From Acinetobacter sp. MB5 (lineage in GTDB: Bacteria > Pseudomonadota > Gammaproteobacteria > Pseudomonadales > Moraxellaceae): a DNA stretch of 64,000 nt. The stretch spans positions 124,001-188,000 of the forward strand of contig NZ_POVU01000006.1 in the NCBI RefSeq assembly GCF_003261585.1, given 5' to 3'. Position numbers and translations under genes: made by a program. Position 1 is the stretch's first letter; every line of letters starts with the position of its first letter. Shown here one piece after another: positions 12,919 to 18,538 of the stretch. Under the pieces are notes generated by a model. That model was not told the DNA's origin. It saw nothing but the letters and a program-made list of their open reading frames with translations, and made no database searches.

Positions 12919-15825
12919 ATGACTGACGCAACTGCGAATTCCGCTCAGAATATTGCTACAACTTACGATCCTACCGAGATCGAGAAAAAATGGTACCAAA
13001 CTTGGGAAGAGAAAGGCTACTTTAAGCCATCTCAACAAGGTGAATCATTCTGTATCATGATTCCGCCGCCAAATGTCACGGGTAGCTTGCACATGGGTCA
13101 TGGTTTTAACAATGCCATTATGGATGCCTTGACACGCTACAACCGTATGTCAGGTAAAAATACCTTATGGCAACCCGGGACTGACCATGCGGGTATCGCA
13201 ACCCAAATGGTGGTTGAACGCCAACTTGCTGCGCAAAATATCAGCCGTCATGATTTGGGTCGTGAACAGTTCATCGACAAAGTTTGGGAATGGAAAGAAC
13301 AGTCTGGCGGGAATATTACTCGTCAAATCCGTCGTTTAGGTTCTTCAGTAGACTGGTCTCGTGAACGCTTTACCATGGATGAAGGTTTATCTAATGCGGT
13401 AAAAGAAGTTTTCGTAAAACTGCACGAAGACGGTTTGATTTACCGTGGTAAACGTCTGGTGAACTGGGATCCGAAACTGCAAACCGCGCTTTCTGACTTA
13501 GAAGTTGAGTCAGACAAAGAAGAAGCCGGTTCATTGTGGCACTTCAAATATTTCTTTGAAGATAAAAACTTGCGCACGCACGATGGCAAAGATCACATCG
13601 TTGTCGCAACCACGCGTCCAGAAACATTGCTCGGTGATACTGCGGTTGCAGTGGCACTGGATGATGAGCGTTATACGCACCTTGTCGGTCAGAACATCAT
13701 TCTGCCAATTACAGGTCGTGCAGTTCCAATCGTTAAAGATGAATATGTCGACAAAGAATTCGGTACAGGCTGTGTAAAAATTACCCCTGCGCACGACTTT
13801 AACGACTATGAAGTCGGCAAACGCTGCGAACTCCCAATCATCAATATCTTCAACAAAAATGCGGAAGTATTGGCTGAGTTTGAATACATCGCCAAAGCGG
13901 GCGAGCAAATTTCTAAAACCATCGCAGCCCCTGCTGACTATGTGGGTTTAGAGCGTTTTGCTGCACGTAAGAAATTGGTTGAGCAAGCAGAAGCTGAAGG
14001 CTGGTTAGATCAAATTCAACCGTACACCTTGAAGCCACCACGCGGTGACCGTTCAGGCGTGATTGTTGAGCCATTATTGACCGACCAATGGTATGTAAAA
14101 ATTGCACCACTGGCTGAACCTGCGATTGAAGCGGTGAAAGATGGTCGCATCAAATTCGTACCAGAACAGTACAGCAACATGTACATGGCGTGGATGAACA
14201 ACATTCAAGACTGGTGTATTTCACGTCAGCTTTGGTGGGGTCACCGTATTCCAGCTTGGTACGATGCACAAGGTAATGTATTTGTGGGTCGTGACGAAGC
14301 AGAAGTCCGTGCGAAAAACAACATCCCTGCTGATGTTGCATTGAACCAAGATGAAGACGTATTGGATACATGGTTCTCATCTGCACTTTGGACGTTCTCG
14401 ACTTTAGATTGGACAGGTGATGCCAAGAAAGATGCGGAAAACTATTTCCTCAAGACTTTCCACCCGACAGATGTATTAGTCACTGGTTTTGACATTATCT
14501 TCTTCTGGGTAGCGCGCATGATCATGATGACCATGCACTTCATGAAAAATGAAGATGGTACGCCGCAAGTTCCGTTCAAAACTGTGTATGTCCATGGTTT
14601 AGTACGCGATGGCGAAGGTCAGAAGATGTCTAAATCTAAGGGTAACGTACTTGACCCATTAGATTTGATTGACGGTGTAGATCTTGAAACCTTGGTACAA
14701 AAACGTACTACGGGTTTGATGAACCCGAAACAAGCGGCGAAGATTGAAAAATCGACTCGTAAAGAATTCCCAGAAGGCATTCAGGCTTACGGTACAGATG
14801 CGGTTCGTTTCACGTTCTGTGCGCTAGCCAATACTGGTCGTGACATTAAGTTCGACATGAAACGTGTTGAAGGTTACCGTAACTTTGCCAATAAAATCTG
14901 GAACGCGACCCGTTTCGTGATGATGAATGTTGAAGGTCAAACGATTGGTGCTGAAGCACGTCCTGATCTGTGGGAATTGCCTGAACAATGGATCATCAGC
15001 CGTCTGCAAAAAGCCGAAGCTGCGGTACAACAAGCCTTTGCGACTTACCGTTTAGACTTGGCTGCACAAGCAATTTACGAATTTATCTGGAATGAATACT
15101 GCGACTGGTATGTCGAGTTAACCAAACCAGTTCTGAACGATGCTGAAGTGTCTGAAGAGCGTAAAGCGGAAGTTCGTCGCGTGTTACTTGCCGTGATGGA
15201 AGCATCTTTACGTCTTGCGCATCCGCTTATGCCGTATTTGACTGAAGAAATTTGGCAGACGCTTGCACCGAAACTCGGTATTGCTGGCGAAACCATTATG
15301 CTTGCGCAATACCCTGTTGCGAACCCTGAGCGTGTAAACGAACAGGCTGAAGCAGATATGCAATGGCTGCAAGGTCTGATTGGTGCGGTGCGTAACATCC
15401 GTGGTGAAATGGGCTTAGGTAATGCGCGTTTATTACCAGTGTTGCTTCAAAACACCACTGATGCTGAAAAAGCACAGATCACCCGTATTGAAGCATTGTT
15501 TAAAGCTTTAGCAAAAGTGGAAAGCATTACATTCTTGGCTGATGCTGAACAACCACCATTGTCTTCTTCATCTGTTGTGGGTCACGTATCTGTATTCGTT
15601 CCAATGAAGGGTTTAATTGACCCGAAAGCGGAATTGGGTCGTTTACAAAAAGACTTAGACAAAGTTCAAAAGCAGCATGACCAAATTGCGACTAAACTTG
15701 GCAATGAAGGTTTTGTAGCGAAAGCACCTGCGGCTGTCGTTGAAGGTGAAAAAGCGAAATTGGCTGAGTTTGCTGACCAGTTAGCGAAAATTAAAGCGAA
15801 TATGGAGCAGATTGCAGCGCTGTAA
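12919..15825 (+). CDS. valS: Valyl-tRNA synthetase
   Basis: Class I aminoacyl-tRNA synthetase that charges tRNA-Val, with an editing domain that removes threonine. The 968-residue product has [13 protein letters not shown] with the HIGH-type motif HMGH at 58-61, the inserted editing domain with [38 protein letters not shown] at 569-573, the anticodon-binding helical domain, and a C-terminal coiled coil ([20 protein letters not shown]) that is typical of ValS. Length is normal. It is a single-gene unit ending in a terminator at 15856. Confidence 0.98.
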
Positions 15826-15855
15826 GGTGTTGTTAATTTAATCTATTTTGTGTAT

Positions 15856-15887
15856 AAAGGGCTGATTATTCAGCCCTTTATTATTTT
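15856..15887 (+). terminator. Terminator after valS
   Basis: Ten-base perfect stem AAAGGGCTGA / TCAGCCCTTT (15856-15865 and 15870-15879) with a TTAT loop, followed by ATTATTTT. It ends five bases before the next gene's start codon, so that gene needs its own promoter or read-through. Confidence 0.88.
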
Positions 15888-15891
15888 AAAA

Positions 15892-16860
15892 ATGAAAGAA
15901 CTATTAGAACCAATTTATCTTAATGAAAAGATGTTACTCAACTGTGCAAGTTATCTATTTGATGGAATAGAGTTAAGTAAAGAAATTCACCAAGCCGATG
16001 AAAATCATTCAGATAAAAACCTAGACATTGAAGGTACTGCCAAAACAAATGGAATAGTTGATTTAATAGCTCAGGCTGATGGGAAACTCAATGCAGGCCT
16101 GATTACAAGAAATAATTCTAGTCTTTCATCAAATTCGGTCAAAAATATTACTTTAGGTGCTATACATATGAAAGCACTCAAAAAGCTATATGAAGAAGGC
16201 TTAATCCATAATTTTAAAAATTTTGAGGAAAACTTAAAGAAAAAACCATATATATCTATTGAGGCAGATTTACAACCAGTAGATTTCTTCGAGCTATTAC
16301 AAATATTAAAAATGCTTACTCCTCAATTAAAATATTTCGTGGCACTTCTGAATAAAAAAAATACTAACAATACAAACAAGAGAAATCCATCAGCTCAACA
16401 ATCATTAAATAATGACCTGATAGAGATCATTAAAAATCTAATTGTAGAGTTAGAAAAGAGCTACTTAGAATCAAATTTACTAGAAATGCTTATGTTCAAG
16501 GATAATAAATGTATAGGTGTAATAGATTTAGACCTAGATAATATAGATCCAAGTAAGTTAAAGTCTCAATTAAACGATGGCAATTTCACAGTTATAGGCA
16601 AAATAACTAAAAACATTACATCAGATGAAAGAATAAATTTGCTTCAACGAAATATTATTACACCTTTATTAACTATCGTTGAGCGTATAACTGTATTTGT
16701 AGAGACGAAAAAAAATCTTCAAAATTTAGAAGTGTTAGAAGATAAAATTTCCAAGTTAAAAGAATTAAAAGATACCGTTTTCTCAATTATTAACTTATTA
16801 CTGGATATTTATATAGAAGGCCCTGCTCTTAGAATCCGTGCAATGTCTGTTTGTATTTAA
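15892..16860 (+). CDS. AT-rich orphan gene, possible DUF6414-family protein
   Basis: The product of 322 residues has no signal peptide or membrane span and is rich in Leu, Ile, Asn, Lys and Ser. It starts KELLEPIYLNEKMLLNCASY; has a Ser/Asn-rich middle (near 80-100); then KKPYISIEADLQPVDFFELL and, in the last third, FTVIGKITKNITSDERINLL. That layout recalls the DUF6414 family, but from memory only. The frame reaches up to 15850, but the valS terminator lies there, so the ATG at 15892 is preferred although no good ribosome binding site is visible. Codon use is more AT-rich than valS. It stands alone between the valS terminator and a repeat element, which suggests acquired DNA. Confidence 0.65.
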   Translation: MKELLEPIYLNEKMLLNCASYLFDGIELSKEIHQADENHSDKNLDIEGTAKTNGIVDLIAQADGKLNAGLITRNNSSLSSNSVKNITLGAIHMKALKKLYEEGLIHNFKNFEENLKKKPYISIEADLQPVDFFELLQILKMLTPQLKYFVALLNKKNTNNTNKRNPSAQQSLNNDLIEIIKNLIVELEKSYLESNLLEMLMFKDNKCIGVIDLDLDNIDPSKLKSQLNDGNFTVIGKITKNITSDERINLLQRNIITPLLTIVERITVFVETKKNLQNLEVLEDKISKLKELKDTVFSIINLLLDIYIEGPALRIRAMSVCI

Positions 16861-16918
16861 AATATGAGAACCAAGTAATATCTATCAAATGATGATTTGA
16901 ACTAATACAGATAAAATC

Positions 16919-17015
16919 CCCTCTCCTCCTAGGAGAGGGTTAGGGAGAGGTACTTCTGAATTTTTTCCATTATAACTTCAATCCCTCATCCTAACCTTCT
17001 CCCAAAGGGAGAAGG
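16919..17015. repeat. CT/GA-rich palindromic repeat pair, left of the DUF559 gene
   Basis: Two copies of the repeat in opposite orientation. The left copy (16919-16950) has stem CCCTCTCCT / AGGAGAGGG around CCT, then TTAGGGAGAGG. The right copy (16983-17015) is the reverse: CCCTCATCCTAA, then stem CCTTCTCCC / GGGAGAAGG around AAA. The pair resembles a REP/BIME unit. Matching copies lie at 17402-17433 and 17479-17511. Confidence 0.85.
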
Positions 17016-17023
17016 AGAACTTA

Positions 17024-17389
17024 CTACATGTTCTCTTTTAAACCAAAACATATACTCCACAAATCCCCTAAAACTGCTTCCATATTCTTCAATACATCAT
17101 GATTCCAAAACCGTACAACTTTTAAATCCAAAGCCTCTAAAAACTTGGTTCGTTCAGCATCATAGGTTTTTCCATCTTCCGTATTGTGCTGACTACCATC
17201 TAGCTCAATAACCAATCCCAACTCATGACAGTAAAAATCTACAATATAGGGAGCAATCACATGCTGTCTGCGAAATTTAAGATTCATAAATCGTTTAGCA
17301 CGAAGTAGTTGCCACATGAGGTGTTCTGCATCTGTGGCATTGCTCCGCATGGTTTTAGCGAATTCTAATAATTGTGGGTCTAGTTTCAT
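17024..17389 (-). CDS. DUF559 domain protein (nuclease-like fold)
   Basis: The 121-residue product matches the DUF559 pattern: RSNATDAEHLMWQLLRAKR, then FRRQHVIAPYIVDFYCHE, then LGLVIELDGSQH. DUF559 is related to very-short-patch-repair and PD-(D/E)XK endonucleases; Asp51, Glu62 and Asp64 are in place for a metal site, and His68 follows. Cutting activity is an inference. No ribosome binding site is visible before the ATG at 17389. The gene fills nearly all the space between two pairs of CT/GA-rich palindromes, which suggests a compact mobile or repeat-associated unit. Confidence 0.85.
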   Translation of the reverse strand: MKLDPQLLEFAKTMRSNATDAEHLMWQLLRAKRFMNLKFRRQHVIAPYIVDFYCHELGLVIELDGSQHNTEDGKTYDAERTKFLEALDLKVVRFWNHDVLKNMEAVLGDLWSICFGLKENM

Positions 17390-17401
17390 TTTTTATTATT
17401 A

Positions 17402-17433
17402 CCTCTCCCTAGCCCTCTCCTAAAAGGAGAGGG
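17402..17433. repeat. CT/GA-rich palindromic repeat, reverse orientation
   Basis: CCTCTCCCTAG followed by stem CCCTCTCCT (17413-17421) / AGGAGAGGG (17425-17433) around AAA. Same family as 16919-17015; it lies 13 bases upstream of the DUF559 start codon. Confidence 0.85.
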
Positions 17434-17478
17434 AATGTTCATTATAAATTTGATGCAGACATATAATCACTTGCTACT

Positions 17479-17511
17479 CCCTCTCCCTCAGGCAGAGGGT
17501 TGGGGTGAGGG
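17479..17511. repeat. CT/GA-rich palindromic repeat, forward orientation
   Basis: CCCTCT ... AGAGGG stem with a CCCTCAGGC loop, then TTGGGGTGAGGG. It ends five bases past the stop codon of the J-domain gene and may stabilise or end that transcript. With 17402-17433 it mirrors the pair on the left of the DUF559 gene. Confidence 0.8.
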
Positions 17512-17515
17512 AAAA

Positions 17516-18538
17516 TCAAAGTGCCCCATGCCCCAACAACATCTCCACACCACTCACCTTTTTCATATGCTTTAAACGCTCTTTTTCCCACTTCAACTGC
17601 TGCTTTAACCCAGCACAATCGGCATCTATGGCTTTATACACATCACTGATCTGCACATGCTCCGCTTTCACATTCTTCGCTAACTGAAAAGAATCTAAAA
17701 TTTCCGCAATTTGGCTTTCAAGCTGCTGACTTTGAGCATCCAATGCCAACTGATAAAACTTTACTTGCTCAGGCGAGAGTTCTTTTGAAGTTACGCTCTT
17801 ATTCTGCTCAAGCTGTAACTGCATTTTCAGTAAATAAAACAAATCCTGCTGCTCATACGCCTGACTTGCCTTCTGAAACAACGCAGTTTTTTCGGCTTTC
17901 TTGCTTTCATCTTGTTCACGGTCAGGGTGAATCATCGCAGCAATTTTTAAGTACACGGTTTTCAAAGACTGAGCTGCCATCTGCTCCGCTTGCTCACGTT
18001 TTTGTTGCAGTCGTTGCTGCTTGGCGTGTTCTCGTGCCTGTTGCTGCTCGGCAGCATATTGTTCAAAGTCTTGCTCTATATCAAACTCATCTTGCTGAGG
18101 AGTTTCCTGATTTTCTAGACGGACATTCTGCGACTTTTTGCTTTTTTTAGCATTCGATTGTGCTATAACCTGCTGATAAAAGGTATTTATTTGAGCAACT
18201 TGAGTATATTGCTCGGCAGACAGAACTTTAGAATGTTTGAGGATCTTTCCAAGACTGGCAATTTTCTCATCGAGTTGCTGTATTTCTGCTTTAGAAAATT
18301 CGTGGCTATGCAGCATATTCCAAAGCTGCTGCATTTGCTGAAACAGCACCGTATGCAATTCGGCATAGACAGGGTAAAGTTTTTGGCGGGTGTGCTGCTG
18401 AATCTCATCCTGCGCATTTTGCCATGTCACCAGACTGATTTTTTGCTGTTCGATTTTGTCGATCAGGCGATTGAGCTTTTTCTGCTGTGGGGAAAGTTCA
18501 GTCTTTTTCTGTATCGTTACTTTGAGATCAGAAGTCAT
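17516..18538 (-). CDS. J-domain protein of unknown target
   Basis: The 340-residue product is rich in Gln, Lys and Glu and mostly helical, with a coiled-coil stretch near 170-195 (AAEQQQAREHAKQQRLQQKR). It carries a J-domain core: YLKIAAMIHPDREQ with the HPD triad at 204-206, then KTALFQKASQAYEQQDLFYLL. The J domain stimulates DnaK-type ATPases, so this is probably a DnaK co-chaperone with its own client; no zinc-finger or DnaJ C-terminal domain is present. The ATG at 18538 is preferred over an in-frame TTG at 18544. A member of the palindromic repeat family lies just past its stop. Confidence 0.75.
   Translation of the reverse strand: MTSDLKVTIQKKTELSPQQKKLNRLIDKIEQQKISLVTWQNAQDEIQQHTRQKLYPVYAELHTVLFQQMQQLWNMLHSHEFSKAEIQQLDEKIASLGKILKHSKVLSAEQYTQVAQINTFYQQVIAQSNAKKSKKSQNVRLENQETPQQDEFDIEQDFEQYAAEQQQAREHAKQQRLQQKREQAEQMAAQSLKTVYLKIAAMIHPDREQDESKKAEKTALFQKASQAYEQQDLFYLLKMQLQLEQNKSVTSKELSPEQVKFYQLALDAQSQQLESQIAEILDSFQLAKNVKAEHVQISDVYKAIDADCAGLKQQLKWEKERLKHMKKVSGVEMLLGHGAL

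Follow-up and report, generated by a model that had tools for sequence, protein, structure and literature searches.

The window, a 64,000-nucleotide stretch of the Acinetobacter sp. MB5 genome, contains four palindromic CT/GA-rich repeat copies that frame a 121-amino-acid DUF559 gene, in the order forward, reverse, gene, reverse, forward. An earlier note on this DNA, made from the letters alone, had described the same arrangement, and the repeat coordinates and the Pfam match to DUF559 (6e-37) bear it out. The gene lies on the minus strand at 17024-17389 and encodes a putative EDxHD/Vsr-like PD-(D/E)XK nuclease (Pfam PF04480, 6e-37; 3hrl, 1.3e-20). Type A repeats have the stem CCCTCTCCT/AGGAGAGGG and a tail ending in AGGGAGAGG. 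The copy at 16919-16950 on the plus strand reads CCCTCTCCT-CCT-AGGAGAGGG-TT-AGGGAGAGG, that is, a 9-bp pyrimidine/purine stem with a 3-nt loop, followed by TT and the mirror tail AGGGAGAGG, and the copy at 17402-17433 on the minus strand reads CCCTCTCCT-TTT-AGGAGAGGG-CT-AGGGAGAGG. Type B repeats have the stem CCYTCTCCC/GGGAGARGG and the tail GGRTGAGGG. The type B copy at 16983-17015 on the minus strand, CCTTCTCCC-TTT-GGGAGAAGG-TTA-GGATGAGGG, has the stem CCTTCTCCC/GGGAGAAGG and the mirror tail GGATGAGGG; to judge from its letters, stem and tail have changed in concert relative to type A. The other type B copy, at 17479-17511 on the plus strand, is CCCTCTCCC-TCA-GGCAGAGGG-TTG-GGGTGAGGG and contains one stem mismatch. 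By type and strand, the order is A forward, B reverse, gene, A reverse, B forward. The two mirrored pairs of the earlier note are therefore mirrored in orientation, but not in type, since the types run A B, gene, A B. With up to three mismatches, the bare stem was found at nine places in the whole genome (3.67 Mb), four of them at the DUF559 locus, and a backward control gave one per strand. An Rfam search of 16800-17700 returned no match at the gathering score, only weak matches, mostly to microRNA families. Besides the DUF559 gene, the region 15825-17516 holds a DUF6414 gene (15850-16860), and a comparison of this region with loci L213-L238 showed that the gene content beside a DnaJ-like gene varies among Acinetobacter species.

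In Pfam, the window protein matched DUF559 and, weakly, MTES_1575 only; no known transposase family was found there. PADLOC gave weak partial matches to DpdF and mREase_II, which we did not take as membership. An AF2 model based on 47 window and locus sequences had a pLDDT of 92.2. Its best structural match was 3hrl, a gonococcal DUF559 protein, followed by both chains of 3r3p, the catalytic domain of the homing endonuclease I-Bth0305I (E 2.2e-4, TM 0.66/0.79). These were the only structural matches with E < 0.001, and Vsr (1cw0) came at rank 10 (TM 0.56/0.45), behind mitoribosomal proteins and PvuRts1I-type enzymes. Residues E21, D50, E61, D63, H67 and D76 are invariant in the 47 sequences, in the numbering of the window protein. 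The median dN/dS was 0.144 (47 intact genes, 760 pairs), and by this measure the gene is under purifying selection. I-Bth0305I has the nearest characterised fold to the predicted model. However, DUF559 differs from the EDxHD homing endonucleases in being a 121-aa single domain with no DNA-binding extension for a long target, in having no intron or intein, and in its presumed target, a repeat present in many copies where a homing endonuclease would have a single allele. One genome paper, in the part of it available to us, applies the term EDxHD to a DUF559 gene (PMC9403480). Caulobacter VsrA likewise combines a DUF559 domain with a Vsr-like fold, but it is linked to a cytosine methyltransferase and has been proposed to act in mismatch repair, and the available extracts of that paper mention no repeats (PMC12907096). 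The gonococcal protein matches 3hrl over 98 residues. At its locus (L301, N. gonorrhoeae), three tandem repeat pairs lie downstream of the gene.

A full-text literature search showed that the repeat strings of the window match a motif described by Holder et al. 2015 (PMC4666352). The motif was named BoxC, later PIT and later TM(ECO), and the available extracts of that paper present it as an intrastrand triplex motif with 23 copies in E. coli, for which a triplex was reported in vitro with the isolated strand (PMC4666352). The repeat framing the window DUF559 gene is this known BoxC/PIT/TM motif, an identity that had escaped the earlier note. Window-type repeats have its pyrimidine/purine stem, short loop, 3-nt second loop and purine tail mirroring the 3' arm, and the two agree in the 9-bp length of the stem, a second loop of TTA or CCG and the mirror tail. 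They also agree in having two types that pair in inverted orientation: all five E. coli pairs are one of each type, according to the same extracts (PMC4666352), and in six genomes, those with a complete set of repeats among the first (partial sets being omitted), 11 of 11 close pairs were inverted and 10 of 11 were A with B, types being assigned by hand. The difference lies in the partner, because in those extracts no enzyme is assigned to the motif, and the authors write that they never met transposase- or integrase-like activities around its sites (PMC4666352), whereas a DUF559 partner is proposed here. A word search of that paper found neither DUF559 nor endonuclease, and our literature searches found no paper linking DUF559 with BoxC/PIT/TM repeats. 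TMECO no. 9 of its Table 1 (1351239-1351204) is the copy adjoining ycjD, the DUF559 gene of E. coli K-12, and the end of that gene overlaps with another, decayed copy. In K-12 (L042, 7327-7466), a duplicate of the ycjD 3' end lies downstream, separated from the original by a decayed B repeat; the arrangement looks as though part of ycjD and a repeat had been copied together.

Within the genus, a PF04480 profile search of 175 Acinetobacter genomes provided 91 loci for examination (the 30 best-scoring, the next 60 in rank and L011), of which 31 are only about 3.3 kb long or less. With up to five mismatches, the tailed repeat matched 132 times in these loci and not once in the reversed sequences, and 128 of the 132 matches lay within 600 bp of a DUF559 gene. 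Subfamily 1, 71-100% identical to the window protein, occupies 53 loci, which amount to 52 distinct genes because the L053 gene repeats the L027 gene; the stem was seen within 600 bp at all 53 and the tailed repeat at 52, the exception being L035. Subfamily 2, 39-48% identical to the window protein, occupies the other 38 loci, and the stem and tailed repeat of subfamily 1 (R1) were seen at none of them. It has repeats of its own with the same design, with the stem TCCCCCTTT/AAAGGGGGA at 31 of 38 loci versus 1 of 53 subfamily-1 loci, and a further stem, CCCTCCTTT/AAAGGAGGG, at 5 of 38 versus 0 of 53. Together with its tail, the CCCTCCTTT/AAAGGAGGG repeat occurred in 118 of the 175 genomes among the matches listed. 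This distribution shows a dedicated pairing, in which each nuclease subfamily goes with its own repeat variant.

When loci were grouped by single linkage on shared flanks, both subfamilies proved syntenic, at 51 of 53 and 38 of 38 loci, respectively, and visible mobility of the gene inside the genus was rejected on these grounds: with 51 of the 53 subfamily-1 loci joined by a shared flank, no movement of the gene can be seen within the genus. DUF559 is usually single-copy per genome among the matches listed, and G004, a 7% contaminated assembly, has three. The earlier note had suggested a comparison with strains that lack the gene. Presence does vary among species of the genus; the DnaJ-like neighbour is present in 27 of 36 genomes without a strong DUF559 match, and the regions downstream of it vary. 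Several of these regions retain repeats or decayed repeats, and at the same locus G007 keeps a 39-residue DUF559 remnant. The clean empty site that the comparison might have revealed was not found at the genus loci, where nearly all copies examined share a flank. Where it has been lost in the genus, the gene may leave behind decayed repeats or a remnant.

Across whole genomes, repeats outnumber DUF559 genes, and the tailed repeat was seen in 127 of the 175 genus genomes, both among the matches listed. When all copies listed were counted, the repeat was present in all of the 58 genomes whose subfamily-1 match is full-length, a class that includes genes with internal stops (mean 12.6 copies), in 14 of 16 with subfamily-1 fragments only (mean 10.4) and in 55 of 101 with no listed subfamily-1 match (mean 4.8), genomes being assigned to subfamilies by the gene matches listed. 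Full-length genomes versus the rest gave a Fisher p = 8e-11 among the matches listed and with relatedness ignored. This co-occurrence is partly built in, because the gene itself is framed by repeats, and the framing copies were therefore subtracted for 52 genomes. Copies elsewhere were seen in 49 of these 52 subfamily-1 genomes and five or more of them in 33, with a mean of 10.8. Among the matches listed and again ignoring relatedness, the Fisher p was 1.4e-7 for away-from-gene copies (49/52 versus 55/101) and 1.1e-4 for five or more copies (33/52 versus 30/101). On the same terms, 58 of the 71 genomes that have subfamily 2 contained repeat 2, as did 60 of the 104 that lack it (p = 0.001). In four genomes whose repeats are fully listed, 11 of 54 repeats lay within 1 kb of a subfamily-1 gene or fragment, against 0.04 expected. 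At the level of the phylum, a strong DUF559 match (E < 1e-20) was seen, among the matches listed for 299 genomes, in 31 of the 36 with three or more repeats and in 46 of the 263 others (p 4e-16, with copies next to the gene included and relatedness ignored). Repeats persist where the gene is missing: 55 of the 101 genomes with no listed subfamily-1 match carry them, and, to judge from place counts, some BoxC is also kept by E. coli strains that lack ycjD.

The association reaches far beyond Acinetobacter, which the earlier note had not noticed. For a scan of named species, the best 80 of at least 570 confirmed candidates were taken, ranked by similarity to the repeat-bearing query. Within 500 bp and with up to two mismatches, the palindrome CCYTCTCC-loop-GGAGARGG was present at 74 of these best 80 DUF559 loci and on both sides in 57; its density was 2.60 per kb near the gene versus 0.071 per kb more than 1.5 kb away, a 37-fold difference. 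Where present, the nearest copy lay a median of about 40 bp from the DUF559 domain on either side. At the same named loci, the palindrome was near 56 of 631 other ORFs of at least 200 aa, and random placement gave a mean of 13.9 and a maximum of 25 of 80 loci, against the 74 observed. The placement of repeats relative to DUF559 genes, which the earlier note had asked to be checked, is thus far from random (53/53 versus 0/38 genus loci; 74/80 versus 56/631 control ORFs). Palindrome-positive named loci carry titles of Pseudomonadota, Desulfobacterales and Geobacteraceae (deltaproteobacterial lineages), Omnitrophota, Planctomycetota, Nitrospirae, Chloroflexi and Bacteroidetes. With Deinococcus and Synechocystis added by plasmid records, the labels of records with a framed DUF559 gene name nine phyla; many of the positive named loci are MAGs, whose contigs may be misassigned to phyla. 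The E. coli ycjD and the 3hrl gene also carry the repeat.

Forty lower-ranked loci, hand-picked at about one per genome with their flanks unseen at the time of choice, had the palindrome in 28 cases and any 8-bp CT/GA stem in 34, compared with 4 and 6 in the outer flanks, among the matches listed. On plasmids, six of 37 DUF559-matching records were opened, and a CT/GA stem was present at three of the loci read (L301, L304, L306) and absent from the other three (L302, L303, L305). On the Synechocystis sp. B12 plasmid (L304), a BoxC-like repeat lies 47 bp upstream of the DUF559 gene, which stands directly before BREX pglX. Among the pattern-negative named loci, L209 does have this stem, enclosing a loop of about 30 nt, and L192, L206 and L210 have inverted flank matches scoring 52-69. 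A first look with a loose pattern had given 26 of 30 loci, a count whose reversed control also fires on palindromes and which was replaced by the counts for named loci and control ORFs; L117, without a match in that look, has a related repeat pair upstream.

When upstream flanks were compared with reverse-complemented downstream flanks, a score of at least 40 was reached at 94 of 146 loci (one of them, L201, a masked-N artefact); among the controls, it was reached by 99 of 728 swapped pairs and by none of 260 off-gene windows. The gene of Legionella anisa is surrounded by inverted repeats of 147 bp. Direct comparison of the flanks also reached 40 at 58 of 146 loci, a frequent outcome given that multiple copies, pointing either way, are present at many loci, and since direct and inverted matches are both high, the ends are probably not simple terminal inverted repeats. 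Protein similarity and stem similarity were correlated over 133 loci (Spearman 0.29; the largest of 500 permutations gave 0.14). L104 was omitted from this correlation and from the flank matching.

The tail of the repeat follows its stem. From 1022 perfect stems, 492 with purine-rich tails and finally 187 distinct repeats were obtained; in these 187, mirror identity between tail and 3' arm was 6.20 of 9 positions, compared with 4.87 ± 0.10 for shuffled tails, and direct-reading identity was 5.23 against 4.82 ± 0.09. Examples of 3' arm and tail are GGGAGAAGG/GGATGAGGG, GGGAGAGGG/GGGTGAGGG, GGGAGAGGA/AGGTGAGG and, in N. gonorrhoeae, GGGAGAGAG/GAGAGAGGG. At L144 (Hyphomicrobiales) and L293, the place of the short second loop is taken by an entire hairpin, and the tail remains a near-mirror. 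Covariation of this kind is what an intrastrand triplex would require, and it is from the covariation that we infer the triplex; selection seems to act on the fold of the repeat. At L293, L144, L112, L117 and L262, mostly alphaproteobacterial-looking loci, the repeat variants have extra hairpins or long stem-tail spacers.

Repeats and gene were also seen inside other genes. At L121 (about 1430-1900), a repeat-DUF559-repeat-repeat cassette interrupts hsdM, a type I methyltransferase gene, in frame, with the reading frame open throughout and the cassette placed between the host residues FHNWQS and YQDIPGFCKSA. Relatives of this hsdM on Shewanella and Vibrio plasmids and in 3khk are uninterrupted there and have a short variable linker. 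At L118 (G444:C1), on the minus strand, asnB (asparagine synthase) is interrupted in frame within its glutaminase domain by a DUF559 cassette at about 2090-1330, and a separate block of four tandem repeats lies in frame further along the same asnB, at about 970-810. The L118 repeats are read as peptides such as LTPNPSPGGRGE, and proline- and glycine-rich peptides encoded by repeats were seen inside host proteins. Strains of E. coli differ at three sites: K-12 has a repeat pair between hrpB and mrcB, another between ygfF and gcvP, and BoxC copies between yjdP and phnP, all or part of which are lacking in the other strains read. Inspection by eye of hsdM and of these three E. coli sites, where the boundaries are blurred, revealed no target-site duplication. 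In 3330 of 5426 E. coli genomes, coverage of the ycjD region is at least 80%. Between fabI and sapF (L241-L243), either ycjD with BoxC or efflux genes occupy the one site; the efflux genes are probably the eefABC cassette named in the title of PMC12817139. A clean ycjD-empty site in E. coli was rejected, as all three ycjD-less strains read have efflux genes there, bordering the fabI side in one strain and the sapF side in the other two. In a Legionella pneumophila evolution experiment, DUF559-bearing segments were among the recombination hotspots, according to the extracts available to us (PMC12308824).

REP elements are dispersed extragenic palindromes whose pairs are oppositely oriented, and their RAYT gene, which encodes an HUH/Y1 transposase (TnpA-REP), is framed by repeats and has been lost in some lineages. 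The arrangement around DUF559 resembles REP/RAYT in having dispersed palindromes, pairs in opposite orientation, one framed cognate gene and loss of that gene in some lineages. It differs in the enzyme, which is an HUH/Y1 transposase in the one case and EDxHD/PD-(D/E)XK by Pfam and predicted fold in the other. REP/RAYT repeats moreover carry a GTAG or CGTC tag at one stem end, in the available part of the source (PMC3733652), whereas there is no such tag by the stem in the window, where the four copies read TTAG, TTAG, CTAG and TTGG. The earlier note had suggested that DUF559 might stand in place of a RAYT. Both of the comparisons it proposed, of repeat placement and of gene presence, came out in its favour, and the analogy therefore holds for architecture and distribution. 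The interpretation in the note is thus supported in part; the nuclease may also mobilise the repeats, as the note supposed.

We suggest, with moderate confidence, that DUF559 and the BoxC-like repeats form one system, an EDxHD/Vsr-like hydrolytic nuclease with its cognate dispersed palindromes, REP/RAYT-like but unrelated in enzyme chemistry. It is natural to infer that the nuclease acts on the repeat; that cutting would lead on to copying is one step further removed. On such a model, a repeat that became single-stranded or was extruded, at the replication fork or under supercoiling, would fold into a hairpin, with its 3' tail turned back to form a third strand along the stem. The DUF559 nuclease would recognise this hairpin-plus-tail fold and nick or cut there. 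A second repeat or repeat pair would then serve for repair of the break, or be joined to it, and in this way repeats, and now and then the flanked DUF559 gene itself, would be copied to new places. In most hosts, the gene would be low-copy, vertically inherited and losable, with the repeats left behind. Several observations count against this reading: the gene keeps to one locus in the genus, repeats occur in genomes with no listed subfamily-1 match, flanks match directly as well as inverted, no target-site duplication was recognised by eye at the sites examined, and three of the six plasmid loci read had no CT/GA stem. DUF559 proteins can, moreover, have other roles, such as that proposed for VsrA in the available extracts (PMC12907096).

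Several other explanations must be weighed against one dedicated system. The repeats could be the ends of a conventional small mobile element, with DUF559 as a transposase-like cutter, the unit moving whole and solitary repeats or pairs being MITE-like derivatives. The inverted flank matches at 94 of 146 loci, which reach 147 bp in L. anisa, the repeat-bounded cassettes inside hsdM and asnB, and the varying presence of repeat pairs among E. coli strains all point in that direction. However, within the genus the gene is syntenic and usually single-copy, repeats are more numerous than genes, pairs mostly join different types (A with B in 10 of 11), flanks often match directly as well (58 of 146), no target duplication could be made out by eye at hsdM or the three E. 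coli sites, and the protein is a single domain of about 120 aa; we consider this explanation unlikely. It is more improbable still that the nuclease removes or repairs the hairpin or triplex of pre-existing repeats and has no part in their spread. A repair enzyme need not sit between its own targets, yet the framing is tight (a median of 40 bp on both sides), and subfamily-specific repeat variants would not be expected, even though the Vsr-like fold of the predicted model (1cw0, TM 0.56/0.45), the purifying selection on the gene and a stem-tail covariation suggesting that the fold itself matters would suit such a role.

We give very little credence to the idea that the repeats are simply recombination-prone and that DUF559 genes are passengers swapped by homologous recombination, without any biochemical interaction. 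The alternative cassettes at one E. coli site (ycjD or efflux genes) are in keeping with it, as is the instability of BoxC sites reported in the available part of PMC4666352. Passengers, though, would be diverse, whereas here a single family is found framed in records whose labels name nine phyla, and within one genus the two paralogous subfamilies have different repeats. That the association is due to chance, or is a compositional artefact of CT-rich sequence, has a negligible probability and was rejected on the reversed-sequence, control-ORF and random-placement, and off-gene-window controls, with no matches in reversed sequence, none in 260 off-gene windows and none at the 38 loci of the paralogous subfamily.

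If DUF559 and the repeats are indeed one system, they would represent a second solution of the REP/RAYT kind, unrelated to the first in its chemistry, and DUF559 might be a protein family that recognises three-stranded DNA inside living cells; the proline- and glycine-rich repeat-coded peptides inside host proteins would be explained as well. The BoxC/PIT/TM repeats have been without an enzyme partner for decades, and DUF559, a largely unstudied family, is now the obvious candidate; with a member in E. coli (ycjD) and one solved structure (3hrl), the question becomes one of simple biochemistry. Tentatively, we can go a step further and imagine a selfish partnership, possible rather than probable, in which a minimal hydrolytic nuclease would recognise the triplex-hairpin fold and drive the copying of that fold, at times of its own gene, and even in frame through host genes. 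DUF559 would then be the missing agent behind BoxC/PIT/TM repeats and, to our knowledge, the first enzyme dedicated to an intrastrand triplex. Rickettsia palindromic elements, for which we know of no enzyme, are also inserted in frame inside protein-coding genes; they are alike in being palindromic repeats in frame within genes, but their sequence is unrelated. Frames that continue beyond the nuclease domain were seen as well: at L104, L105 and L107, DUF559 is in one frame with a following domain (LGLGCDRGTPEETI...), which we guess to be cobalamin-related, and at L113 the DUF559 frame continues into what is, by eye, a MurB-like protein.
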